In this document: piece after piece, positions 1-35,491 of the stretch | Numbering within the stretch: the first letter of the stretch is position 1 | Layout: the number at the start of each line of letters is the position of its first letter | Source of the DNA: Gammaproteobacteria bacterium | Lineage (GTDB): Bacteria; Pseudomonadota; Gammaproteobacteria; Steroidobacterales; PWYM01 | Direction of reading: 5' to 3' | Length of the DNA stretch: 64,000 nucleotides | NCBI GenBank assembly: GCA_003567475.1 | Contig: PWZL01000057.1 | Location: 20,473-84,472, forward strand | Position numbers and translations under genes: made by a program | Notes under the pieces: generated by a model | Told to the model about the DNA's origin: nothing | The model's input: the letters and a program-made list of their open reading frames with translations, nothing else | Databases searched by the model: none

Positions 1-3000
1 GGGATGTCCAGCGCAACTGCAGCCGCGTTACAGCTGTCCGCCAGTTCGGCGAGCGCATCGGCCACTGTGGCCGCCTCGACGGCCGGATCACGTGCGGCCT
101 GTTCCAGACGCGCTGCCGCTTCGGTGATCGCGGGATAGCCGTAGCCCCCGCCGGCGCCCTTGAGCTGGTGGGCGAGTCGCCCCAACTCGGTGTACTCGCC
201 AGCCGTGGCGAGCACGTTCAGGTGGCTGATGCGCTCCGGCAGCTCGCCGACGAACTCGGCGAGCAAGGGTTGCATGTCGGGGTCATGGGCAAATTCACTC
301 AACATGGGGTGATGATCTCCATTGTCAGGACGGCGCGCCGTGATCGCGTTCACGTCATGGTCGCTGCCCACCAGAGCAAGGCAGGTCTCGAGCAGCGCCT
401 GGCGGTCGATCGGCTTGACCAGGTAGGCGTCGAACCCTGCAGCCTCGCAGCGCGCCCGGTCCTCGGGCAGGGCATGCGCCGTGAGTGCCAGCATCGGTGG
501 GGCGATCGCCAGCCGCGCCGCCTCGCGGGCGAGTTCATAACCATCCATGACGGGCATGTCGATATCACTGACGACGAGCGCTGGGGGTCGTCCCTGCTGG
601 TGCCGGCGGCGCAGGTGCGTGAGCGCGGCAGCCCCATCGGCAACATCCGTGACCTTGGCACCCGCACTGTCTAGGTAGTGGCAGATCAACCGGCGGTTAT
701 CTTCCCCATCCTCGACCACCAGCACCTCCAGACCCTCGAGCGCCCGTTCGCTGGCGATTCGGGACTGCATGATCGCGCGACTCTCGGGGAGGGTCGTGAC
801 CAGGCTCGCGCCGGCGCTGGCGACCAGCGGCACATTGAGCATGAAGCCTGCCGGGTCGCCAGGCGCCGGCGGCTGGACATCCAGCTGGCCCCCCAGGAGT
901 CGGGCCAGTCTGCGGGCAGTCATCAGTCCGAGCTGCGTGCCGTCATGGCGTGGCGCAATGGCGTCGCTGTCGTTGGGCGTCGACTCGAACAGCACTTCGG
1001 TCGCCGCCGGATCCAGCCCTGGGCCACTGTCTCGGAGAGAAATGACCAGTCGCTCGCCCTCGGGTGAAAGCTCACGGCTGATGGCCATGACGACCTCGCC
1101 GCCCAGGCCTGTCCTGACCGCGTAATCGACCAGCTTGACGAGAATCTGGCGCAGACGCAGCGGATCGCTCAGGATGCGCTCCGGAATGGCGTGCCGCAGC
1201 TCGAGGCGCAGGTGAGCGCCCGTTTCCGCGAGTCGCGGCCGCATCGTCAGTTCGATTTCGCGCACCAGATCCACCAGCGAGATGTCGCGAGATTCTAGGG
1301 TGAGCGTGCCGGCTTCGAGCTGCGAGAGGTCGAGAATATCGTTGATTGTGGCCAGCAGGCGCTCGCCGGCGCGTCGCAGCACGGCTGCAGTGTCGTCGCG
1401 GGCGTCGCCGACCGGCACCGCGGCGGCATCGCCCAGCATGTCCGCATAGCCGAGAATCGCGGTCAGCGCGGTGCGGATCTCATGACCCAGGCTTTCCAGA
1501 AAGCGGCTTTTCGCGACGCTGGCGGCCCGGGCTTCGGTCAGCGCCTGTTCAATACGGCCCTCGCGCTCAAGCTGTTCACTGACATCGACGGCAACGGACA
1601 CCAAGCGGTCGCAGTGTCCGTCCGGCCCTCGCAGCGGGATCTTGTCCGTACACAGACTTCGGTAAGTGCCGTTGGCGTCGCGGTAGCGTTCGAGAATCCC
1701 GAATCTTGGTCGGCCAGTGCGCAGCACTTCCCGGTCGTCTGTCAGGTATTTGCCAGCATCCTCGGGCGGAAAGAGTTCCTCCACGCGGTGGCCGCGAACG
1801 TCCTCCACCGGCAGCCCGAGAGCCTGCGCCGCCGTTCGGTTTAGATCGAGGATGCGGTTGCCATCGTCCTTGTAGAACACCAGCGCCGGAATGGCGTCGA
1901 TGATGGCCTGGAGTTCGCTACGCTGCTCGGCGAGCCGTCGACTGGCACGGGTGACCTGAGCATGGGCCTCGCGCAGCTCGGAGATGTCGATATGGACACC
2001 GGCGATCCGTCTGGCCTGACCGGCGAAATCCCGTTCGATGACCTGACCCGCGTCGAGGATCCAGGCCCACTGACCGTCGGCACGACGCAGCCGGTACTCA
2101 CACCGGTATTCAGGCGAGGTGCCGGCGAGATGACCGTCGCGGGCCGCGGCGACGCGCGGATAATCCTCCGGGTGCACCAGTCGCTGCCAACCGTCGATCG
2201 AATCGGGGATGTCCTCGGCACTCAGGCCGAGCAACTCGCCCCAGGCCGCGTCGCGGTTGACCCGGCCGGTGGCGAGATCGACTTCCCAGGTGGCCACGCC
2301 GGCGCCGCGGATGAGCGTGCTCAGTCGATTCGCAGCTTCGCGTTGCCGGGTCACGTCCCGGACCACGGCGATGGCACCGACCAGCGCACCCGCAGCATCA
2401 TGCAGTGGGCGGCTCGAGGAACTGATCCAGCGGATTCGGCCGTGGGCGGCGGGGATGCCGACGATGCAGTCGTCGACCGCTTCACCGCTGCGCAGGGTCA
2501 GACTCGCTGCGTGGTCTTCCCCGGGAAAGCGACTGCCGTCTTCCCGGATCGCTTGCCAGGACGGGTCGGTCGGCTTGCGTCCGATCAAGTCGGCGGCCGA
2601 TAGTCCCAGGATGGCCTGGGCGGCGTCGTTACAGGCCACGACAGCCCCGTCGGCGGCGAACTCGATGATGCCGTCCGTACCGGCCTGCACAACCGCCTGC
2701 AGCCGCCGTTCATGGATCAGACGCTCGCTGATGTCACGCTCGATCAACAGCCAGCCGCGCGTATCCCTGGGTTCCAGTTCGACCTCCGCCCAGTAGTGGC
2801 CGGCGTCACGGTGGCGGAGCTGCAGCCGGGCCCGGGAGGCTTGTCCGGTGGCGAGGGCCGCAAGCAGTGCCTCGCGCTCCGGCGAGTCTTCGCAGCGCTG
2901 TGCGAGCAGCGAGCTCAGGGTCTGGCCGGCGAGAACTGTCGTCGACCATCCGCTGGCGCGTTCCCACGCGGCATTGCACCAGCAGATCACGCCCGCGGCA

Positions 3001-3101
3001 TCCGTCTCCAGCACCGCCGTGGGTCGGGTCTGAATGTCGGCAACCAGTTTTTTGACGGACAGTGCCGGGTGGAAGGCGTTGACGTTGGACGTGTCCCCCA
3101 T
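1..3101 (-). CDS. Multi-PAS hybrid sensor kinase (about 4 PAS, HisKA/HATPase-like, REC, HPt); kinase core degenerate; truncated at the window edge
   Basis: Reverse-strand reading from ATG at 3101 stays open to position 1 (absent from the ORF track because there is no stop in the window). Reads MGDTSNVNAFHPALSVKKLV..., H-box SLGHEIRTALTAILGYA, REC VLVVEDGEDNRRL...VVSDIDMPVMDGYE...VKPID, HPt LAHQLKGAGGGYGYPAI. Confidence 0.85.
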   Translation of the reverse strand, partial: MGDTSNVNAFHPALSVKKLVADIQTRPTAVLETDAAGVICWCNAAWERASGWSTTVLAGQTLSSLLAQRCEDSPEREALLAALATGQASRARLQLRHRDAGHYWAEVELEPRDTRGWLLIERDISERLIHERRLQAVVQAGTDGIIEFAADGAVVACNDAAQAILGLSAADLIGRKPTDPSWQAIREDGSRFPGEDHAASLTLRSGEAVDDCIVGIPAAHGRIRWISSSSRPLHDAAGALVGAIAVVRDVTRQREAANRLSTLIRGAGVATWEVDLATGRVNRDAAWGELLGLSAEDIPDSIDGWQRLVHPEDYPRVAAARDGHLAGTSPEYRCEYRLRRADGQWAWILDAGQVIERDFAGQARRIAGVHIDISELREAHAQVTRASRRLAEQRSELQAIIDAIPALVFYKDDGNRILDLNRTAAQALGLPVEDVRGHRVEELFPPEDAGKYLTDDREVLRTGRPRFGILERYRDANGTYRSLCTDKIPLRGPDGHCDRLVSVAVDVSEQLEREGRIEQALTEARAASVAKSRFLESLGHEIRTALTAILGYADMLGDAAAVPVGDARDDTAAVLRRAGERLLATINDILDLSQLEAGTLTLESRDISLVDLVREIELTMRPRLAETGAHLRLELRHAIPERILSDPLRLRQILVKLVDYAVRTGLGGEVVMAISRELSPEGERLVISLRDSGPGLDPAATEVLFESTPNDSDAIAPRHDGTQLGLMTARRLARLLGGQLDVQPPAPGDPAGFMLNVPLVASAGASLVTTLPESRAIMQSRIASERALEGLEVLVVEDGEDNRRLICHYLDSAGAKVTDVADGAAALTHLRRRHQQGRPPALVVSDIDMPVMDGYELAREAARLAIAPPMLALTAHALPEDRARCEAAGFDAYLVKPIDRQALLETCLALVGSDHDVNAITARRPDNGDHHPMLSEFAHDPDMQPLLAEFVGELPERISHLNVLATAGEYTELGRLAHQLKGAGGGYGYPAITEAAARLEQAARDPAVEAATVADALAELADSCNAAAVALDI

Positions 3102-3195: not shown

Positions 3196-3723
3196 ATGGA
3201 TAAGGTGGCCCTCGACATGCCTGACGCCGCGCGGCGTCACCCGGTGCTGCACCTGGAAGTCTCGCTGCGCGAGCAGTGCCTGAGCCTGTGGCAGGCTGGC
3301 GTGCGGGTTGCGGACTACCCGGTCTCCACGGCGCTGCTGGGCCCCGGGGAGCAGGCAGGCAGTGGCTGTACCCCCCGCGGTCGTCATTGCGTCCGCGCGC
3401 GGATCGGCGCGGGTCTGCCTGCGGGTGCCGTCCTGGTGGGCCGACGTCCCACCGGAGAGCTCTGGTCACCGGTCCTGGCGGAGCATTATCCGGAGCGTGA
3501 CTGGATCCTTAGCAGAATCCTCTGGTTGAGCGGGCTGGAGCCCGGCGTCAACCGGCTGGGCAAGGTCGACAGCATGCGCCGGTACATTTACATCCACGGG
3601 ACGCCAGAGACCGAACCTATGGGCATCCCCCGGTCCCATGGGTGTGTGCGGATGCGTAATCAGGATGTCATCGAACTGTTCGACCGTGTTGTCGTCGGTA
3701 CCGGGGTGAGGATCGTCGAGTGA
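3196..3723 (+). CDS. L,D-transpeptidase (YkuD-fold) family protein
   Basis: C-terminal HGTPETEPMGIPRSHGCVRMRN matches the L,D-transpeptidase SHGCVRM active site. Confidence 0.85.
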   Translation: MDKVALDMPDAARRHPVLHLEVSLREQCLSLWQAGVRVADYPVSTALLGPGEQAGSGCTPRGRHCVRARIGAGLPAGAVLVGRRPTGELWSPVLAEHYPERDWILSRILWLSGLEPGVNRLGKVDSMRRYIYIHGTPETEPMGIPRSHGCVRMRNQDVIELFDRVVVGTGVRIVE

Positions 3724-6226: not shown

Positions 6227-9076
6227 ATGGAGTACCGCGGAGACGAGGGCAACGAACAGGTTCGCCTTGCGGCCCTGCATCGCCTGGAGCTGCTGGATAC
6301 CCCGGACGAAGAACGCTTTGACCGACTGACCCGCCTGGTCGCGCGCGTGCTGGAGGTGCCGATAGCGCTGATCAGCCTGGTAGACGCCGAGCGAGTCTGG
6401 TTCAAATCGCGCTACGGTCTCGCGGCCCGGGAAGTGCCACGGGATTGCACCTTCTGCGAACTTGCACTGGAAGAAGCGGGCCCCTTGGTGGTGCCCGATA
6501 CACGCCGCGATGTCCGGTTCGCCGCCGCACCGCTGGTGACGGCGGAGAATGGCATTCGCTTCTATGCCGGACAGCCGCTGCGCTCGCCAGAGGGACAGCG
6601 TATCGGCACGCTATGTGTGCTGGATGTCGAACCGCGTGGTTTCGATGAGGAAGCGCTGAGTACGCTGGTGGAATTCGGCGCTCTGGTCGAACATGAACTG
6701 GCCGCGCGCGGCCGCGAACTGGCCTATCACGAGGTTCTCGAACGTCTCCCGGACGCCGCCTATCTGATCGGATTGGAAGGCGCGGAACGCGGCCGCGTCC
6801 TCTGGGTCAATTCGGCGGCCATCCGGCTCTACGGTCTGGACCCCACCTGCAACCGTGGCCGTCTGATGCGTGATATGGGCACCCCGGAAGGCGCGCGGGA
6901 GGTCGAAGCGCGGATGGCCCGGCTGGAGGCCGGAGAGCATCTGCGCTTCCGGCAACGCCATGTCGCCCCCGAGGGTGGGGAGTTCGAGGTGGCGATTTCC
7001 GCGCGGCGTATCGTCCTCGATGGCCGCGGAGTCGTGCTGTCGCTGCATCGGAATCTCGAAGAGAGCGCGCTGCGCGAGCTCGACGCCCTGCGGAGCGCCA
7101 TCGGCCGGCATATGTTGTACTCCGTTACCGATCGACGCGGGCGGATCGTCGATGTCAACGAGGGCTTCTGCCGCCTGAGCGGTTTCCGTCGCGAGGACCT
7201 GCTCGGGCGCGATCATCGGGTGTTCAGCTCCGGCTATCACGACCAGCAATTCTGGCAGGGCATGTGGGGCGCTCTGCTGGCCGGGCGGGTCTGGCGTGGC
7301 GAGATCTGCAACCGCGCCCGCGACGGTGCCCTGTTCTGGGTGGACTCCACGCATATCCCCCAGCTGGATGGTGATGGACGGCCTGAGCGCTACATCACGC
7401 TGCGCTTCGACATCACCGCGAAGAAGCGTCTGGAACAGGAACTGCGCGAGCAGACGCGAGACCTGGAGCTCAAGCAGCGCTCGCTGGAGCATGCCGAACA
7501 ACGTTTGCTCCTGGCCATGGAAACCGGGCGTATCGGCCTGTGGGATGCCGATCTGGATCTGCGCAGTGCGTATTGCGCCGAAAGCTGGTTCACCTTGCGC
7601 GGCAGACCACCGCGGGAGGGACGGGTCCCCCTCGATGAGGGCTACGAGGAGTGTCATCCGGAGGACCGACCCGGCATGGAGGTGGCGATGGAGCGTCATA
7701 TTTACCTCGGCTCACCAGGTTATGTGAACGAACGCAGAGTCCGCACCGCCGAGGGGCAGTGGCGCTGGATTCGAGATGTGGGACGGGTGATCGAGCGACG
7801 GCCTGACGGGTCGCCCCGGCGACTGATCGGGGTCAATATCGACATCCAGGCACTGCGTGAAGCCATGCGGCAGGCCGCGGCGGCGAGCCAGGCGAAAAGC
7901 GAATTCCTCGCTCACATGAGCCACGAGATCCGTACGCCGATGACCGCGATTCTCGGCTACGCAGAACTGCTTGCCGAAGCGACAGAACCGGACCCCGCTC
8001 AGTTCCGGCCTGCTGCAGACACCATCCGTCGCAATGCCGAACATCTGCTGACCGTGCTGAACGACATCCTCGACGTTTCCAAGATCGAAGCGGGGCAGCT
8101 GCAGATCGAACAGGTCCCTGTGCAGCCGCTGGCGCTGGTCCGGGACGCATTGCAATTGCTTCAGGCGAAGGCGGCGGCCAAGGGTCTGAGCTTGCGCCTG
8201 GTGTGCGATTCAGAGGTGCCCGAGACCATTCAGTCCGACCCGGTACGGTTACGACAGATTCTCCTGAATCTGATCGGCAACGCCATCAAGTTCACCGAGG
8301 CCGGTGAGGTGGTGGTCCACGTGCTGCATGACGAGCGTTCCAGGTGGCTGGTCTTCCGGATCGTGGATACCGGGATCGGCATGAGTCCGGAGGCCTGTGC
8401 CCGGATCGCGCGTTTCGAGGCGTTCAGCCAGGGCGATGCCAGCATGGCACGGCGGTTCGGCGGGACGGGCCTGGGACTCAGGATCTCGCGCGCGCTGGCA
8501 CAGAAGCTCGGCGGGGACCTGACGCTCACTTCGCGCGAGGGGGTGGGCAGCACCTTTTCGGTCACGGTGAGCACAGGCGACATCACTGGTGTGCCGCTGC
8601 ACCCGGCCGGCGTGGTCGGGGCGCCGGCCCCCAGCACGGCCGTCGCGCCGCGGTCGTCGGGGGGGCAGCCGCTTGCCGGTCTCGCGATCCTGCTGGTCGA
8701 GGACGGTATGGACAACCAGCGGCTGATCCGCCATCACCTTGTGCGTGGCGGGGCCCGAGTGTCACTGGCCGAAAACGGCCGCGAAGCCATGGAGCTCGTG
8801 ACCGCGAGGGAGGCAGGTCCGGACCTGATCCTCATGGACATGCAGATGCCCGTGATGGACGGCTACAGCGCGACCCGGGCGCTGCGTGCCGCCGGCTGGA
8901 CCGCGCCGATCGTTGCGCTGACCGCTCACGCCATGAGTGGTGATCGGGAACGGTGTCTTGAGGCAGGCTGCGACGACTATCTGAGCAAGCCGGTGAATGT
9001 GGCGCAACTGCTCGAGACCTGCCAACGGCTGGCCGGTGGCAGCGGTGCCGCGCGGCGGGTAGGCTTCGGAAGATGA
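6227..9076 (+). CDS. GAF-PAS hybrid sensor histidine kinase with C-terminal REC, no HPt
   Basis: SHEIRTPMTAILGYAELL, NLIGNAIKFT, DTGIGMS, FGGTGLGLRIS, LLVEDGMDNQRL...LMDMQMPVMDGYS. Confidence 0.92.
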   Translation: MEYRGDEGNEQVRLAALHRLELLDTPDEERFDRLTRLVARVLEVPIALISLVDAERVWFKSRYGLAAREVPRDCTFCELALEEAGPLVVPDTRRDVRFAAAPLVTAENGIRFYAGQPLRSPEGQRIGTLCVLDVEPRGFDEEALSTLVEFGALVEHELAARGRELAYHEVLERLPDAAYLIGLEGAERGRVLWVNSAAIRLYGLDPTCNRGRLMRDMGTPEGAREVEARMARLEAGEHLRFRQRHVAPEGGEFEVAISARRIVLDGRGVVLSLHRNLEESALRELDALRSAIGRHMLYSVTDRRGRIVDVNEGFCRLSGFRREDLLGRDHRVFSSGYHDQQFWQGMWGALLAGRVWRGEICNRARDGALFWVDSTHIPQLDGDGRPERYITLRFDITAKKRLEQELREQTRDLELKQRSLEHAEQRLLLAMETGRIGLWDADLDLRSAYCAESWFTLRGRPPREGRVPLDEGYEECHPEDRPGMEVAMERHIYLGSPGYVNERRVRTAEGQWRWIRDVGRVIERRPDGSPRRLIGVNIDIQALREAMRQAAAASQAKSEFLAHMSHEIRTPMTAILGYAELLAEATEPDPAQFRPAADTIRRNAEHLLTVLNDILDVSKIEAGQLQIEQVPVQPLALVRDALQLLQAKAAAKGLSLRLVCDSEVPETIQSDPVRLRQILLNLIGNAIKFTEAGEVVVHVLHDERSRWLVFRIVDTGIGMSPEACARIARFEAFSQGDASMARRFGGTGLGLRISRALAQKLGGDLTLTSREGVGSTFSVTVSTGDITGVPLHPAGVVGAPAPSTAVAPRSSGGQPLAGLAILLVEDGMDNQRLIRHHLVRGGARVSLAENGREAMELVTAREAGPDLILMDMQMPVMDGYSATRALRAAGWTAPIVALTAHAMSGDRERCLEAGCDDYLSKPVNVAQLLETCQRLAGGSGAARRVGFGR

Positions 9077-25643: not shown

Positions 25644-28153
25644 TTGTCCGAGACCACTACCACGCTTTTCGATGGGATGCCGTCCGGCGGCTATCCCGTT
25701 GGCGATCAGTCGCTCGGGACCATGACCAGTGTCATCCCCGATCTGCTGTTGCTGCTGGATGGGGATGGACAGGTCCTCGCCTGTCATGGCGGCGATGAGG
25801 CCCGGCTGATCCAGCCGGCGGACGCGATTCCGGGCCGGCGGCTGGAAGACATCCTTTCCCCGGAGCTTGCGCTGCGGACGCGACAGGCCATTGCCGACGC
25901 GCGGGCCGGGGTTCGCGTTGTCCGGTTCGTCCATGAACTGGCCCAACCGGCCCGGCGATGGTTCGAGGCCCGGGTGCGGAGCATGGCTTCGGGCGCCAGC
26001 CTGGTGATGTTCCGGGATATCACGGCCTTGCGCCGGCTGATCGCGGCAGGACACCGCTCGGAGCGCCGTTATCGCGCGCTCTACCATCGTTCCCGTGATG
26101 CCGTGATGATGATGAACCGCGACGGCCTCTACGACTGTAATCCAGCCGCCCTGGCGCTGTTCGGCATCTCGTCGAAAGCAGCGCTGAAGGCGCTGCATCC
26201 CTCTGACCTCTCGCCGGCGTTTCAGCCCGACGGCCGATGTTCGCGCGCGGCGGCGCAGGGGTATCTCGACCAGGCATTCGCCGGCGGCGATGCGCGCTTC
26301 GAATGGTTACACCTGCGCTGGGACACGGGCTTGCCGGTGTATTGCGAAGTGCAGCTCAGCGCACTCGAGATCGAAGGGGAAACACTGGTCCAGGGTGTGG
26401 TGCGCGACATCAGCGCACAGGTGCGTGATCGCCAGCGCCTGCACTCGATCTACCAGACGGTTGCCGAGGGGATCGTGCTGATGAACGCCGACGGGGGGAT
26501 CGTCGAGGCCAACCCGGCGGCGGAGCGCATCCTGGGGCTCAGCCGGGACCAGATCCTCGGGCGGACACCACGTGACCCGCGGTGGCGAGCGATCCGCGAG
26601 GATGGCAGTGATTTTCCCGGGGACCAGCACCCGGCAAGCCTCACGTTGCAAACTGGCGAGCCTGTCCGCGGGCTGGTGCATGGTGTGCATCTGCCGGGTG
26701 GATCACTGCGCTGGATATCGGTCAGTACTGCGCCGCTGCATGGTGAGGATGGGGCGGTGGCCGGAGTCGTCGCCAGCATGGCGGACGTCACCGAATTGCG
26801 TCGCGAGTCAGAAGCGCGGGCGGCGCAGCAGGAGGCGCTGCGTGAGGCTGCCCGACGAGCCGAAGCCGCCAATCGGGCGAAAAGCGATTTCCTGGCCAAC
26901 ATGTCTCACGAAATCCGCACGCCGATGGCCGCGATTCTGGGTTACGCCGAGCTGTTGGCTGAGCGGCTGCCGGTGACGACGCCTGTCGAGGCTGACAGCC
27001 CGGCGCAGATGCTGCACGCGATCCGCAGCAACGCCGAGCACCTGCTCGATGTCATCAACGACGTCCTCGATGTATCCAAGATCGAGGCCGGTCAGATGGA
27101 GGTGGAGCAGATCGAGGTCTCGCCCGTCGAGGTGGTGACCCAGGTGCTCGAAATGATGCGTCCGCGCGCGCGCGCCAGGGGGCTCTCGTTGTCCTGTGAG
27201 ATGGCCACTCCGATCCCGGAGACGATTCTCAGCGATCCACTGCGCCTGCGCCAGATTCTAGTGAATCTGGTGGGCAACGCGATCAAGTTCACGGCCGCCG
27301 GCGCGGTCTGTGTGCGTCTGGGCTGTGACGTGTCGGCGGACCGGTTACAGGTGGTCGTTCTCGATACAGGGATCGGCATGAGCGCCGAACAGCGGGCGCG
27401 GATCGCGCGATTTGAGGCGTTTTCGCAGGCCGACAGCACCATGAGTCGGCGTTACGGTGGCACCGGCCTTGGCCTTCGGATCTCCAGCACGCTGGCCACG
27501 CTGCTCGGAGGGAGTATCGCCGTCGATTCGACACCGGGCGAGGGGAGCACATTCACGCTGACCCTCACCACCGGTCCGCTGGTCGGGGTGCCACTGGTGG
27601 AGACGATCGACTGGCTAGAGACGACCACGTTGGCACTGCCACGTCGGCAGTCGAGCGGGCGGCCGTCGATGGATGCAGGCGAGGTCGCTGCCGGCGCAGC
27701 CGCAGAGAGCCGTCCACTTGAGGGCGTCGGGATACTGCTGGCTGAGGATGGTGTCGACAATCAGCGTCTCCTATCCCACCACTTGCGCCGTGCAGGGGCC
27801 CGAGTGATGCTGGTGGAGAATGGCGCGCGCGCGGTGGCATGGATCGAGCGCGGGCACCCCGCAGTGGATCTGGTGCTCATGGATATGCAGATGCCGGAAA
27901 TGGACGGCTATGCTGCCACCCAGGCGCTGCGTGGGCGTGGGTGTCGGCTGCCGATCATCGCGCTCACCGCGCACGCGCTGGCCGGTGATCGCGAGAAGTG
28001 TCTGGCCGCTGGATGCGATGACTATCTGAGCAAGCCGGTCGACCGGCGCAGCCTGGTGGATGCCTGTGGGCGCCAGCTGGCCAGGTATCGGTCGGCGATG
28101 GGGCGGGCCTCATCGAGTCGACTTGGCGAGATGCGATCCGGGGAGGAGCTCCG

Positions 28154-28157
<4 letters not shown>
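25644..28157 (+). CDS. Multi-PAS hybrid sensor histidine kinase with REC, no HPt
   Basis: TTG start preceded by AAGGAG; SHEIRTPMAAILGYAELL, NLVGNAIKFT, GGTGLGLRIS, LMDMQMPEMDGYA. Confidence 0.92.
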
Positions 28158-30484
<2,327 letters not shown>

Positions 30485-30487
<3 letters not shown>

Positions 30488-30511
30488 AGTCTCTATCGGT
30501 GGCGCCGATAC
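30485..30511 (+). promoter_or_regulatory. Sigma28 (FliA) promoter
   Basis: TAAAGTCT-N11-GCCGATAC against consensus TAAAGTTT-N11-GCCGATAA; the TAA is also the kinase stop codon. Confidence 0.75.
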
Positions 30512-30557
30512 AGCATCAGCGCGGTCGCGCAGTGAAGTCACGAGGGTTGGAACCACA

Positions 30558-30752
30558 ATGAACCTGCTGATCGTTAGTGTCGTGGTCATGCTCGCGATCG
30601 AGGCCGATATCGATGAGCCCGAATCGAGCGAGCTGTTCCAAGCCTATCCGGGCATTCTGGCGGATCAAAACGTCATCCCGCCCGAATTGTGGCCCGACTT
30701 CGAGGAGCTCGAAGAGGAACTGAAAGGCACACCGGCGTCTGTCCCTGCCTGA
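30558..30752 (+). pseudogene. motA: motA remnant (internally deleted, in frame)
   Basis: MNLLIVSVVVMLA|IEADIDEPESSELFQAYPGILAD|QNVIPPELWPDFEELEEELKGTPASVPA; the second block matches the MotA mid region (xEADIxxPxxSELFxxYPxxLAD) and the third the MotA C-terminus (xRPSFxELEExxKG). Channel TM regions are missing. Confidence 0.7.
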
Positions 30753-30763
30753 CGGGCAGCAAA

Positions 30764-30859
30764 ATGTCGAATACCCAGCCGATCGTCATCAAGCGGATCT
30801 TCAAGGTCGACGGCCATCACGGCGGCGCGTGGCCTGGTCGAGGTGGAGTGAACCGATGA
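30764..30859 (+). pseudogene. motB: motB remnant (N-terminal residues only)
   Basis: MSNTQPIVIKRIFKVDGHHGGAWPGRGGVNR*; matches the MotB N-terminus (PIVIKRxKK..GHHGGAWKVAYADFVTAMMAFF) then ends before the TM/plug. Not in the ORF track because it is too short. Confidence 0.7.
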
Positions 30860-31731
30860 GTACAGTGCCGCCCCGTCTCTCTGATGCGCGCGCCGCGGCA
30901 TCCCTGCCTGGCATCAGCGTCGCGGTCATCGAGCTGCTTCGCAGCATCGGCGCTGCGGAGGCTACGGCCACCGAGATCAGCGACGCGCTCAGCCGAGACC
31001 TGACGCTGACCGCGCGGGTGCTGAAGGTGGTGAATTCGGCCTACTACGGGCAGTCCCGAACCATCGCCTCGGTCGAGCGCGCGGTCGTTGTTCTCGGTTT
31101 TCCCGCGGTACGCAGCATCGCCATGGCTGCCGGCTGTTTCCGGCTGCGGCGCATGGGTGGTTCGGTCGGTGGCGTCACTCCGGAGGCGCTGCTCAGCCAT
31201 GGGCTCGCGGTCGCGCTGGCCAGTCGCCACCTCGCGCGAACTCGCCAGGGACTGTGCCGGGAAGAGGCCTTCATGGCGGGGCTGCTGCATGATTTCGGCC
31301 TGCTGCTGGAAATGCATGGCTCGCCTGCCGACTTCGCCACGCTCGCGGCCGACATGCCGATCGGAGAGGCGGCGACGCCGTCGAGCTGGCTGGCGATGGA
31401 GACGGCACTTTTCGGTGCTGCTCACGGGGAGAGAGCTGCAGGGGTGTTCGCGGAGTGGCAGTTGCCAGAACGTATCGTCGGCGCCATCGCCTGCCATCAT
31501 GCGCCGTTGACGGCCGAGGATCCGCTGCGTGAACTCGCCGCCGTGGTCGCCCTGGCGGACAGCCTGGCCGCGGATGCCGAGCTGGGTTTCGCGGGTGCCT
31601 CGGAGCCTGTGACGCCGGATGATGCGGTACTGGAGTACCTGGCCTTCGACTGGTCAGAACGGACCGACTTGCAAGACAGTGTCCGCAATGAAATGGGCAG
31701 CCTGCAGGGGATTCTGGCTGATGGCGCCTGA
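30856..31731 (+). CDS. HDOD domain protein
   Basis: LPGISVAVIELLRSI...VLKVVNSAYYGQ..TIASVERAVVVLGF, EEAFMAGLLHDFGLLLE; start ATG 30856 overlaps the motB-remnant stop. Confidence 0.88.
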   Translation: MSTVPPRLSDARAAASLPGISVAVIELLRSIGAAEATATEISDALSRDLTLTARVLKVVNSAYYGQSRTIASVERAVVVLGFPAVRSIAMAAGCFRLRRMGGSVGGVTPEALLSHGLAVALASRHLARTRQGLCREEAFMAGLLHDFGLLLEMHGSPADFATLAADMPIGEAATPSSWLAMETALFGAAHGERAAGVFAEWQLPERIVGAIACHHAPLTAEDPLRELAAVVALADSLAADAELGFAGASEPVTPDDAVLEYLAFDWSERTDLQDSVRNEMGSLQGILADGA

Positions 31732-34700
31732 ATCGCACTGGCGTACGCTGCTGGACGCCCTGCCGGATCCGGCCTGTGTGCTCGCCAGCGATGGTGTGAT
31801 CCTGACCGTCAACACCGCATGGGTGGACTTTGCGCGAGAGAACGGTGGCGATCCGGCCGCGATCGGTCCCGGTGCGGATTATCTGGCCGCATGCGATACC
31901 GAGCAGAGGGCATTGGAGGATCATGATCCGGCGATGATGAGCGTTGCGGCGATCGTCGGCACGCTCGGTGATGTGCTGGCCGGGCGGCTGACGCAGACCG
32001 TCTGCGAGTATCCGTGTCATGCGCCGCGAATACGCCGATGGTTTCTAATGCGTGCCCGGGGTTTTGTAGCGGAGGGTGAGCGCCGCGTGCTGGTGACCCA
32101 TACGGACATCACCCTCTCGCGGCGCAGTTGGGAGGATCGTCGCGAGCACCTTGAGCTGTTCGAGGCGCTGGATCATCAGCCCGGTATTGCCCTCTGGGAA
32201 ATGTCGGTCAGGACGGGCCGCGTCAGCCATTCGGCCGGTCTGTTACATCTGCTGGGGCATCCCGAAGACGGGCGCCGGACGGAGACGCCTGCTTGGCATC
32301 ATCTGGTGGCCCGGGTCGAGCGCCGCAGACTGATCGACTGGGTGGGACGGGCCCGCCAGGGGGTGATCGCCGAGCACACCTTCGCCGATGAAGTGCGCCT
32401 GCGTCACTATGCCGGCCGGCCCCTCTGGGTGCTTGCCGTCGCCCGGGTCGTCGCCTGGAGCCAGGAGGGCAGGCCGACCCGACTCGCCGGCATGGTGATC
32501 GATGTCTCATCGCGCAAGCGTCTGGAGCACCTGCTGGCCCGCGAGCGGCGAGTCTACGAACGGCTGTCACTGATTGCCAGCAACACAGACAATCTGGTGA
32601 TCTTCACCGACCGCGCCGGGCGCACGACGTGGGTCAACGAAGGGTTCAGCCGGGCCACAGGTTTCACGCTGCAGGAGATCCGGGGCCGCAAGCCCGGTGA
32701 GCTACTGCAAGGGCCGGGGACTGACCCCGCGACAATAGGGCTGATCCGCGCAGCCGTGGCCCAGGGTGAGCCCATTACCGTGAAGCTGCTGAATTACACT
32801 AGGGACCGTCGTCCCTACGAGGTGCAGGCTGAGATCAAGCCGATTGACGGCGCTGACGGGACCGTTACCGGGTTCATGGCCGTGCAGACCGACATCACCG
32901 AACAAAGCGAGCGGGCGCGCGAGCTGCAGCGACTCTACGCGCAGCTGCATGCGCTGACCGAGCTGGTGCCGGGCGGTCTTTACCAGTATCGCATCAGCCC
33001 TGACGGCGATCATGTCATGGATTACTGCAGCGATCAGTTCCGGGAGCTCCATGGACTCGGCGAGGACGCCGATGCCGACGCCGATGTGCTGCGTCAGTTG
33101 CAGAGGCGGATTCCGGCGGATGACTACGCCACCTTGATTCGTCAGGTCGAAGGGGTGGTTGGGACTTCAGAGGCGCTGGCCTACGATTACCGTATTCTGT
33201 TACCGGACGGGGGCGAGCGGCATATCTCCGGGGTATCCCGGTCGGTCGTCCACGTAGACGGCTCGACCGTATTCCATGGTTTCGTGCGGGATGTGACCGA
33301 GCGACGGGTCATGGAAAGACGACTCAGGGAGTCACACCAGCGTTTCGCCGATATCGCCAGACTGACGCACGAGGTGCTTTGGGAAACCGATGTCGACGCG
33401 CGCTTGAGTTTCGTCAGTGACAACGTCGAGGAGATTCTGGGTTATCGTCCTGCGGACCTTGTCGGTGAGACCTTTCTGGTGCTGTGTGACCCAGAGGCGC
33501 GGGCCAGAATTCAGGAGAACATGCGCGGGGTACGCGGCCGCCGTCAGGAGTTTCGCGACTACCATCTGCCCGCACTCGATGCGGCGGGCCATCGGCGCTG
33601 GCTGGAGTTCAGCGGGACGCCATTGATCGGTGCCGATGGTGCGCTGGCCGGCTATCGGGGTTCGTTCAGCGATGTCACTTCGCGCGTAGAGACAGCCCGG
33701 AAGCTGCGCCGGAGTGAAGAACGGTTCGAGCGCGCGGTGCGCGGCAGCACCGATGGACTGTGGGACTACGCCTTTGCCAGCCGGACAATCTGGGTCTCCG
33801 CCCGGATGGACGAGCTGCTTGGTCGCCGACCCGAGCAGGCACTTGCGGGCCATCGACCGCTGCTGAGCCTTCTTCGCAGGCTGCACCCCGGCCACCATGC
33901 CATGGTCCGGGCGGCTTGGCGCGCACACCACGATTCGGGGCACCCTTTCGACGTCGTGGTCCAGTTGCGGGTGGGCGATTTCGACTGGCGCTGGTTCCGC
34001 ATTCGCGGTGAGCTCAGTCGCCAGGAGACCGGTGATGTGGTGCGCATGTCGGGCTCGCTTTCCGATGTGCACGAATGGCAGCAAGCCCGTGAACGCCTCG
34101 AGTGGCAAGTGCTGCATGATCCCCTGACCGGACTCTCCAATCGCGAACTGTTCATGGACCGGGTCGGCCAGCTGATCTATCGCCAGCGCGAAGAGTCCGC
34201 ATTGCGGGCCGCCGTGTTCGCCATGGACTTCGATAGATTCAAGCAGGTCAATGATGTTCACGGGCATGCGGTGGGCGATGAACTGCTGCGGCGCATTGGT
34301 CAACGCCTGCGCGAGCAGACGTCAGGCGGCGACATCGCCTGCCGTTTCGGCGGAGACGAGTTCGCCGTACTGTTGCCGGGGGTTGGCAATGCGGAGGAGG
34401 CGAGAGTACGCGCCGAACGGCTGCATGCCGCGCTGGGCCAACCCTATGCGCTTCAGGGCGGCCTCGAGATTGTCTGCTCTGCCAGTATCGGGGTGCTGTA
34501 CCTTGAGGCTGCGCGTTACGACAGCGCCGATGCCGTGCTTCGGGATGCCGATGCGGCAATGTATCAGGCCAAGGCGTCCGGCGGGCGCGTCCAGTTTTTC
34601 GACAGTCGCCTGCGCGAGCGGATGGCGCGGATGGCGCACTTGGAGCAGGGCCTGCGCCAGTGTGTCGCCAATCGTGAGTTGATGCTCCGCTACCAACCGG

Positions 34701-35491
34701 TGATTTCATTGGAAACCGGGCAGATCAGCCTGCTCGAGGCGCTGGTCCGCTGGCAGCGCCCTGGGGAAACCGAGCTCGTGCGGCCGGACGAATTCATTCC
34801 CCTGGCCGAGGAAACCGGGCTTATCGTGGGGATCGGCCGCTGGATTGCGGAGCAGGCCTGTTCGGATCTGGTGGCCATGCGCGCGCAGGAACCCGCCATG
34901 TCGGCGCTGCGGATGGCGATCAATGTCTCGCGTCGGGAACTGGTTGAGCCGGATTATGTGCCGTGGTTGCAGGCGATGGTGAAAACCCACGGGTTGCAGC
35001 CGCAGGATCTGATGCTCGAGATCACCGAGACGGCCTTCGTCGATGCGCGGTATGACATCACTGACACGGCGAAGCAGCTGCGTGATGCCGGCTTCCTGCT
35101 GGCGCTGGATGATTTTGGTACCGGACAGTCGTCGCTGAACAGCCTGCAGGAACTGCCGATCAGCGTCGTCAAGATAGACAAGAAATTCATTCGCGAACTC
35201 ACCAGCCGGCAGAGTTTCATGGCGATCGTGCACGCCATCGTCACGCTCGGTCACTACCTGGAACTGCAGGTGATCGCCGAGGGCGTGGAGTCCGAGACCG
35301 AGGTGGCTGCGTTGCAGGGCATGGATTGCGCCATGGGGCAGGGATTCTTCTTTTCGCGGCCGGTGGTCTGGGAGGACATCATCGGGCTCGCGCGTTCGCG
35401 ACAAGTGCGTGCGGTGCCGGATGCCCAGGGGTGTCTGGCCAACTGGCCGCGCGAAAGGGCACTGACCGCCGGAGGGTATGCCCATGGATGA
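31721..35491 (+). CDS. Multi-PAS GGDEF-EAL protein with intact catalytic motifs
   Basis: CRFGGDEFAVLLPG; EALVRWQ, DDFGTGQSSL, KIDKKFIREL; start ATG 31721. Confidence 0.9.
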   Translation: MAPESHWRTLLDALPDPACVLASDGVILTVNTAWVDFARENGGDPAAIGPGADYLAACDTEQRALEDHDPAMMSVAAIVGTLGDVLAGRLTQTVCEYPCHAPRIRRWFLMRARGFVAEGERRVLVTHTDITLSRRSWEDRREHLELFEALDHQPGIALWEMSVRTGRVSHSAGLLHLLGHPEDGRRTETPAWHHLVARVERRRLIDWVGRARQGVIAEHTFADEVRLRHYAGRPLWVLAVARVVAWSQEGRPTRLAGMVIDVSSRKRLEHLLARERRVYERLSLIASNTDNLVIFTDRAGRTTWVNEGFSRATGFTLQEIRGRKPGELLQGPGTDPATIGLIRAAVAQGEPITVKLLNYTRDRRPYEVQAEIKPIDGADGTVTGFMAVQTDITEQSERARELQRLYAQLHALTELVPGGLYQYRISPDGDHVMDYCSDQFRELHGLGEDADADADVLRQLQRRIPADDYATLIRQVEGVVGTSEALAYDYRILLPDGGERHISGVSRSVVHVDGSTVFHGFVRDVTERRVMERRLRESHQRFADIARLTHEVLWETDVDARLSFVSDNVEEILGYRPADLVGETFLVLCDPEARARIQENMRGVRGRRQEFRDYHLPALDAAGHRRWLEFSGTPLIGADGALAGYRGSFSDVTSRVETARKLRRSEERFERAVRGSTDGLWDYAFASRTIWVSARMDELLGRRPEQALAGHRPLLSLLRRLHPGHHAMVRAAWRAHHDSGHPFDVVVQLRVGDFDWRWFRIRGELSRQETGDVVRMSGSLSDVHEWQQARERLEWQVLHDPLTGLSNRELFMDRVGQLIYRQREESALRAAVFAMDFDRFKQVNDVHGHAVGDELLRRIGQRLREQTSGGDIACRFGGDEFAVLLPGVGNAEEARVRAERLHAALGQPYALQGGLEIVCSASIGVLYLEAARYDSADAVLRDADAAMYQAKASGGRVQFFDSRLRERMARMAHLEQGLRQCVANRELMLRYQPVISLETGQISLLEALVRWQRPGETELVRPDEFIPLAEETGLIVGIGRWIAEQACSDLVAMRAQEPAMSALRMAINVSRRELVEPDYVPWLQAMVKTHGLQPQDLMLEITETAFVDARYDITDTAKQLRDAGFLLALDDFGTGQSSLNSLQELPISVVKIDKKFIRELTSRQSFMAIVHAIVTLGHYLELQVIAEGVESETEVAALQGMDCAMGQGFFFSRPVVWEDIIGLARSRQVRAVPDAQGCLANWPRERALTAGGYAHG

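Follow-up and report, generated by a model that had tools for sequence, protein, structure and literature searches.

A probable genus-specific pseudo-histidine kinase with conserved phosphotransfer sites is a candidate HPt hub for c-di-GMP signaling

Pseudo-histidine kinases are few, and most of those known come from model organisms. They are defined as histidine kinase homologues without one or more kinase functions (PMC12632262), and DivL of Caulobacter is one that has been repurposed in a kinase network (PMC4211667). RetS of Pseudomonas aeruginosa has a degenerate HATPase domain and does not autophosphorylate; it keeps the HExxT motif and acts by blocking, siphoning, and dephosphorylation (PMC5992135). 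In RcsD of the Enterobacterales, an inactive HATPase, conserved less well than its active counterpart in RcsC, lies upstream of an HPt domain that serves a response regulator (PMC7418988). FasC of Streptococcus pyogenes is a proposed pseudokinase that would work as a trans-phosphorylated half, its DHp histidine being phosphorylated by a partner (PMC12675982). The HPt domain of SypF in Vibrio fischeri collects phosphate from other hybrid kinases, RscS and HahK (PMC11841056).

The window analyzed here, a 64,000-nucleotide stretch of a gammaproteobacterial genome, carries at its left end a minus-strand gene (positions 3 to 3101; C13:20439-23573 in the genome) that we call the pseudokinase gene. 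It is a single open frame with 1033 codons inside the window and 11 codons plus the stop beyond the window edge (about 34 bases); an alternative start lies at 3218, and orthologue alignments begin at the ATG at 3101. The domain order is PAS(x4)-HisKA-HATPase_c-REC-HPt, with all signaling domains above the Pfam cutoff. A PAS-like first domain at about residues 20 to 125 precedes PAS domains 2 to 4 (1572 to 2705; Pfam PAS, PAS_3, and PAS_4), which are followed, on the same strand, by HisKA, the DHp domain (1308 to 1514; PF00512, E value 2.4e-14), a degenerate HATPase_c, or CA, domain (864 to 1166; PF02518), REC (387 to 725; PF00072), and HPt (39 to 266; PF01627). By Pfam, the protein and its orthologues thus have the HisKA, HATPase_c, REC, HPt order of a tripartite (unorthodox) hybrid histidine kinase; the catalytic ATP-binding boxes (N, G1/D, and G2) are not those of such a kinase. 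The PAS region (1524 to 2897) looks mosaic, with residues 69 to 256 showing 42% identity to the window kinase at 25644 and residues 389 to 526 showing 47% identity to a kinase on contig C33; these identities to different paralogues suggest domain exchange between paralogues.

The initial annotation had reported that both N-box asparagines are lost, and we found the N-box KLVDYAVRTG (1107 to 1136, minus strand) in one uninterrupted frame, with Lys656 and Tyr660 in place of both Asn. It had compared this kinase with three others in the window, all canonical plus-strand hybrid kinases without HPt: 6227 to 9076 (GAF-PAS-HisKA-HATPase-REC), 25644 to 28157, and, overlapping the latter gene by 4 bases, 28154 to 30487 (HisKA-HATPase-REC). 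The degraded G2 box HDGTQLGL (924 to 947, minus strand) versus their GGTGLGL held up, as did the altered H-box around His540, GHEIRTAL versus SHEIRTPM, in which the Ser preceding the DHp His is Gly. The N-box pattern given for the three, N-L-x-G-N-A-[IL]-K-F-T, fits two of them (NLIGNAIKFT and NLVGNAIKFT) and must be widened to N-[LI]-x-G-N-A-[IL]-K-F-T for the third (NIVGNALKFT). Two features had been overlooked: the D-box (G1), DSGPGL (1014 to 1031, minus strand), is kept in this copy, and the HExxT phosphatase motif is intact, including Thr544. The DHp His540 lies at codon 1484 to 1482, and the REC phospho-acceptor Asp846 (SDIDMPVMDG; codon 566 to 564) and the HPt His978 (AHQLKGAG; codon 170 to 168) are intact where they had been placed.

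Three of the other four genus genomes carry an orthologue (76, 74, and 69% identity), and none was found in the fifth genus genome (G002, 87% complete). Apparently the same genes, with identical boxes, occur in the gammaproteobacterial MAGs DLM2.Bin61, Super_Day8_Bin.28, and CSSed162cmB_305. All four genus copies have lost both N-box Asn residues and the G2 glycines and have Ala for the H-box Pro. The replacement residues differ, the other three N-boxes being KLIDHALKVS, RLLEHALKTE, and KLVDHSLNRN. The D-box is lost in three of the four (ADTPGM, APGLCL, and DDSPST) and kept only in this genome's copy, while HExxT is invariant across them and the DHp His, REC Asp, and HPt His are also conserved. 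Asn stands at the second N-box position in 106 of 114 homologous kinase cores gathered from all loci; the 8 without it include all four pseudokinase orthologues, so the pattern is not chance. Degenerate N-boxes (NLISSGMKSI, HLASHAIRSS, and NLVGLAIRAG) were also seen in hybrid kinases of Aquisalinus (L088:7986-9161 and L103:8010-9185), Planktophila (L117:7878-9092), and Opitutales (L062:9780-10949), apparently as independent losses, and the D-box Asp is lost as well in the Aquisalinus pair and the Opitutales kinase.

Nei-Gojobori counts over the six orthologue pairs gave dN/dS values of 0.35 to 0.57 for the CA domain and mostly about 0.1 (extremes, 0.06 to 0.25) for PAS3, PAS4, HisKA (0.06 to 0.25), REC (0.09 to 0.22), and HPt, all of them rough values because dS is often near or above 1. 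Identity between orthologues is 39 to 56% for CA, 72 to 88% for HisKA, 74 to 88% for REC, and 79 to 87% for HPt, and in every pair the 117-residue window of lowest conservation begins at residues 660 to 671, in the CA domain. The codon-model tree length (IQ-TREE) is 4.9 for CA versus 2.3 to 3.1 for the other domains. For the CA domains of the canonical paralogues, dN/dS is 0.09 (6227), 0.13 (25644), and 0.17 to 0.27 (28154); the last is also less conserved (66 to 68% identity), so the contrast with the pseudokinase CA domain is clear but not absolute. The PF02518 score is 52 bits here and 46, 37, and 39 bits in the orthologues versus 86 to 98 bits in canonical relatives. Only the ATPase domain is under relaxed constraint, and even there some constraint is left. 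The stretches RLRQxLxxL, LGLxxAxxLAxLLGG, and GFxLxxPL are invariant in the pseudokinase CA domain and look like the fold core, and an AlphaFold model shows a confident CA core fold with an uncertain ATP lid. Taken together, a conserved loss with varied residues and strong purifying selection on HisKA, REC, and HPt make autokinase activity, initially called doubtful, very doubtful and show that the altered protein is maintained. The ATP-site residues are absent and CA constraint is relaxed, as the pseudo-histidine kinase class predicts, with the loss of activity itself predicted from the sequence.

Directly downstream of the pseudokinase gene in all four genomes, and off the window here, is a REC-GGDEF-EAL gene that overlaps it by 4 bases (GTGA). 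It encodes about 590 residues, with motifs that by eye appear intact. No close copy of it was found outside the genus in 369 genomes of the class at the chosen cutoff, and among 396 genomes of the order, close copies outside this genus turned up in G126 and G063 alone. The same operon occurs in G126, a member of another family in this order, where a full-length relative of the pseudokinase (31% identity, same domain order) carries the canonical N-box RFRQILLNLVGNAVKFT and is a probable co-orthologue. The initial annotation had named an orthologue with a canonical N-box as the case that would tell against it; there is none inside the genus, and the one in G126, being outside it, places the loss in this lineage and leaves the earlier reading unrefuted. 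Because the G126 operon has an intact kinase, the ATP-site loss is probably derived, and the simplest reading is an ancestral live kinase whose ATPase was lost in this genus. In a tree of the full core with all columns, the pseudokinase is placed beside the 28154 kinase, its nearest paralogue there (SH-aLRT, 91), and in a tree without CA columns beside the C218 kinase of G001 (84). The exact sister differs by tree; both nest the pseudokinase in a single clade of canonical hybrid kinases (support, 97 to 98).

G001 has a second module (L157:5711-10470), in which a canonical hybrid kinase gene is divergent from a standalone HPt gene and a REC-GGDEF-EAL gene whose product shares 67% identity with the pseudokinase partner. 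The HPt domains of the pseudokinase, the G126 operon, and this second module, the latter two both placed before REC-GGDEF-EAL, align well. G002, without the pseudokinase, has a REC-GGDEF-EAL gene (53%) at L158:1059-3988 beside a MotA-like gene, with no adjoining kinase, and in this genome MotA/MotB-like genes, named by eye only, adjoin the pseudokinase operon (L118:8520-10336). From 25644 to 35491 in the window, the two overlapping hybrid kinases are followed by two genes identified by eye, one HDOD-like and the other a large PAS-GGDEF-EAL gene; together they are likely a second c-di-GMP signaling cluster.

In this genome (98.4% complete), Pfam recognizes HPt domains in two CheA proteins, in a truncated protein of ChpA-like type, and in the pseudokinase, whose HPt is thus the only one detected here outside CheA/ChpA-type proteins; the truncated protein, on C82 and cut by the contig end, is called ChpA-like because of a complete homologue in G002. 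Six hybrid kinases in this genome combine HisKA, HATPase, and REC and are without an HPt. The pseudokinase gene is not the sole HPt source in G001, where a second HPt stands alone, or in G004, where another small frame contains an HPt. The 28154 to 30487 kinase, a close relative and candidate partner, has close orthologues (67 to 75%) in all four genomes that carry the pseudokinase and no close orthologue in G002, which is also without the pseudokinase, a co-occurrence drawn from five genomes, with G002 at 87% completeness. At DHp contact positions, which we take to be those that set receiver choice, the pseudokinase nearly matches the canonical kinases, with AGYM (AGYT in G001) versus their AGYL. 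On this evidence a shared HPt hub is the most parsimonious account, and SypF and RcsD are precedents for it.

We therefore lean, with somewhat better than even confidence, toward a genus-specific pseudo-histidine kinase that serves as a shared HPt hub, fed by HPt-less hybrid kinases, with REC-GGDEF-EAL and c-di-GMP as its output. Given that three phosphate-passing sites are kept and the ATP-site residues are lost, the protein probably relays or drains the signals of other kinases. Predicted to be unable to autophosphorylate, it would be fed phosphoryl groups by canonical HPt-less hybrid kinases, with the 28154 to 30487 kinase as the best candidate, either from the partner REC to the pseudokinase HPt or onto its DHp or REC within a mixed dimer. 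The HPt would then pass phosphate to REC-GGDEF-EAL and so set c-di-GMP; the direction of that effect is inferred, and the output protein carries a cyclase domain as well as a phosphodiesterase domain. The DHp and REC domains would drain phosphate from the same route, and the PAS domains would thereby tune a relay energized by other kinases. Counting against a hub, the REC domain of a hybrid kinase may function with no HPt at all, and the strong conservation of the DHp His would be superfluous if only the HPt mattered. The retention of His540 and HExxT suggests additional RetS-like draining or trans-phosphorylation, and the three activities are mutually compatible. A fuller version, which we offer tentatively and at a little under an even chance, is that a tripartite kinase lost only its ATPase and became an ATP-independent His-Asp-His hub, with several donor kinases and flow in either direction to the cotranslated REC-GGDEF-EAL.

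Among described systems, RetS is the best structural match among kinase cores and shares with the pseudokinase a degenerate HATPase, HisKA with HExxT, and REC downstream. Unlike the pseudokinase, RetS keeps the second N-box Asn, acts on GacS without REC-GGDEF-EAL coupling, and has two REC domains and no HPt rather than one of each; nor is it known to share an operon with a c-di-GMP enzyme. DivL, a structural match (4q20), is the reverse case, its DHp His being replaced by Tyr and its CA domain kept. SypF, a hybrid sensor kinase with the relay domains, would share with the pseudokinase an HPt fed by other hybrid kinases, a likeness suggested here by genomic evidence, but it is regarded as a working sensor kinase, whereas the ATP site is lost here. 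FasC differs in having neither REC nor HPt and in belonging to a different family. RcsD resembles the pseudokinase, with its predicted inactivity, in the poorly conserved HATPase upstream of an HPt but is without REC and without the DHp His (PMC3762810), both of which the pseudokinase has. Given these differences from RetS, RcsD, and SypF, the protein is best described by its sequence as a pseudo-histidine kinase and as a member of none of the three. Such proteins were known already; what would be new is the combination of an apparently live DHp His, a presumably dead ATPase, REC and HPt, and a c-di-GMP output.

We consider it unlikely that the protein is chiefly a RetS-like inhibitor, whose mixed dimers would block an active hybrid kinase, siphon phosphate to its own REC, and dephosphorylate the partner REC via HExxT, the HPt being secondary. 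Of the solved structures that superpose well, RetS is the nearest (6dk7/6dk8; TM-score of 0.82 over the kinase core, E value 1e-16), its sequence matches at an E value of 2.7e-27, and the invariant HExxT of the orthologues fits such an action; however, the pseudokinase HPt, which RetS lacks, is as conserved as REC and sits beside its apparent target. Less probable again is the substrate half of a FasB/FasC-like heterodimeric kinase, in which a partner CA would phosphorylate His540 in trans and the phosphate would then reach the protein's own REC and HPt. FasC offers a precedent, and conservation is high at His540 and in the DHp around it though the protein's own CA domain looks dead, but the H-box has lost its Pro and has Gly for the Ser that precedes the His.

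It is very improbable that the protein remains an active kinase whose nucleotide site is merely unusual. The loss of both N-box Asn residues and the G2 glycines in all four copies, and of the D-box in three, outweighs the Pfam recognition of HATPase_c above the cutoff, the DSGPG kept in this copy, and a CA dN/dS below 1, and RetS is inactive despite a milder loss, its second N-box Asn being kept (LLDNAFK). A gene in decay, or an error of sequencing or binning, is scarcely credible; one domain is under relaxed constraint, but intact frames, a conserved operon, and strong purifying selection in all other domains, across four genomes, contradict it. We take the gene to be a maintained pseudokinase rather than a decaying one.

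The shared HPt hub that we favor would be a testable case of a closed kinase pathway becoming a shared one. The loss maps to one genus, the operon of another family in the order having an intact kinase, and, with the damage confined to one domain, ATP use has been separated from relay in nature. The finding also cautions that HisKA-HATPase-REC-HPt proteins should not all be annotated as kinases. If the proposal is true, G126-type operons with an apparently live kinase would allow a direct comparison of the ancestor-like and derived forms.
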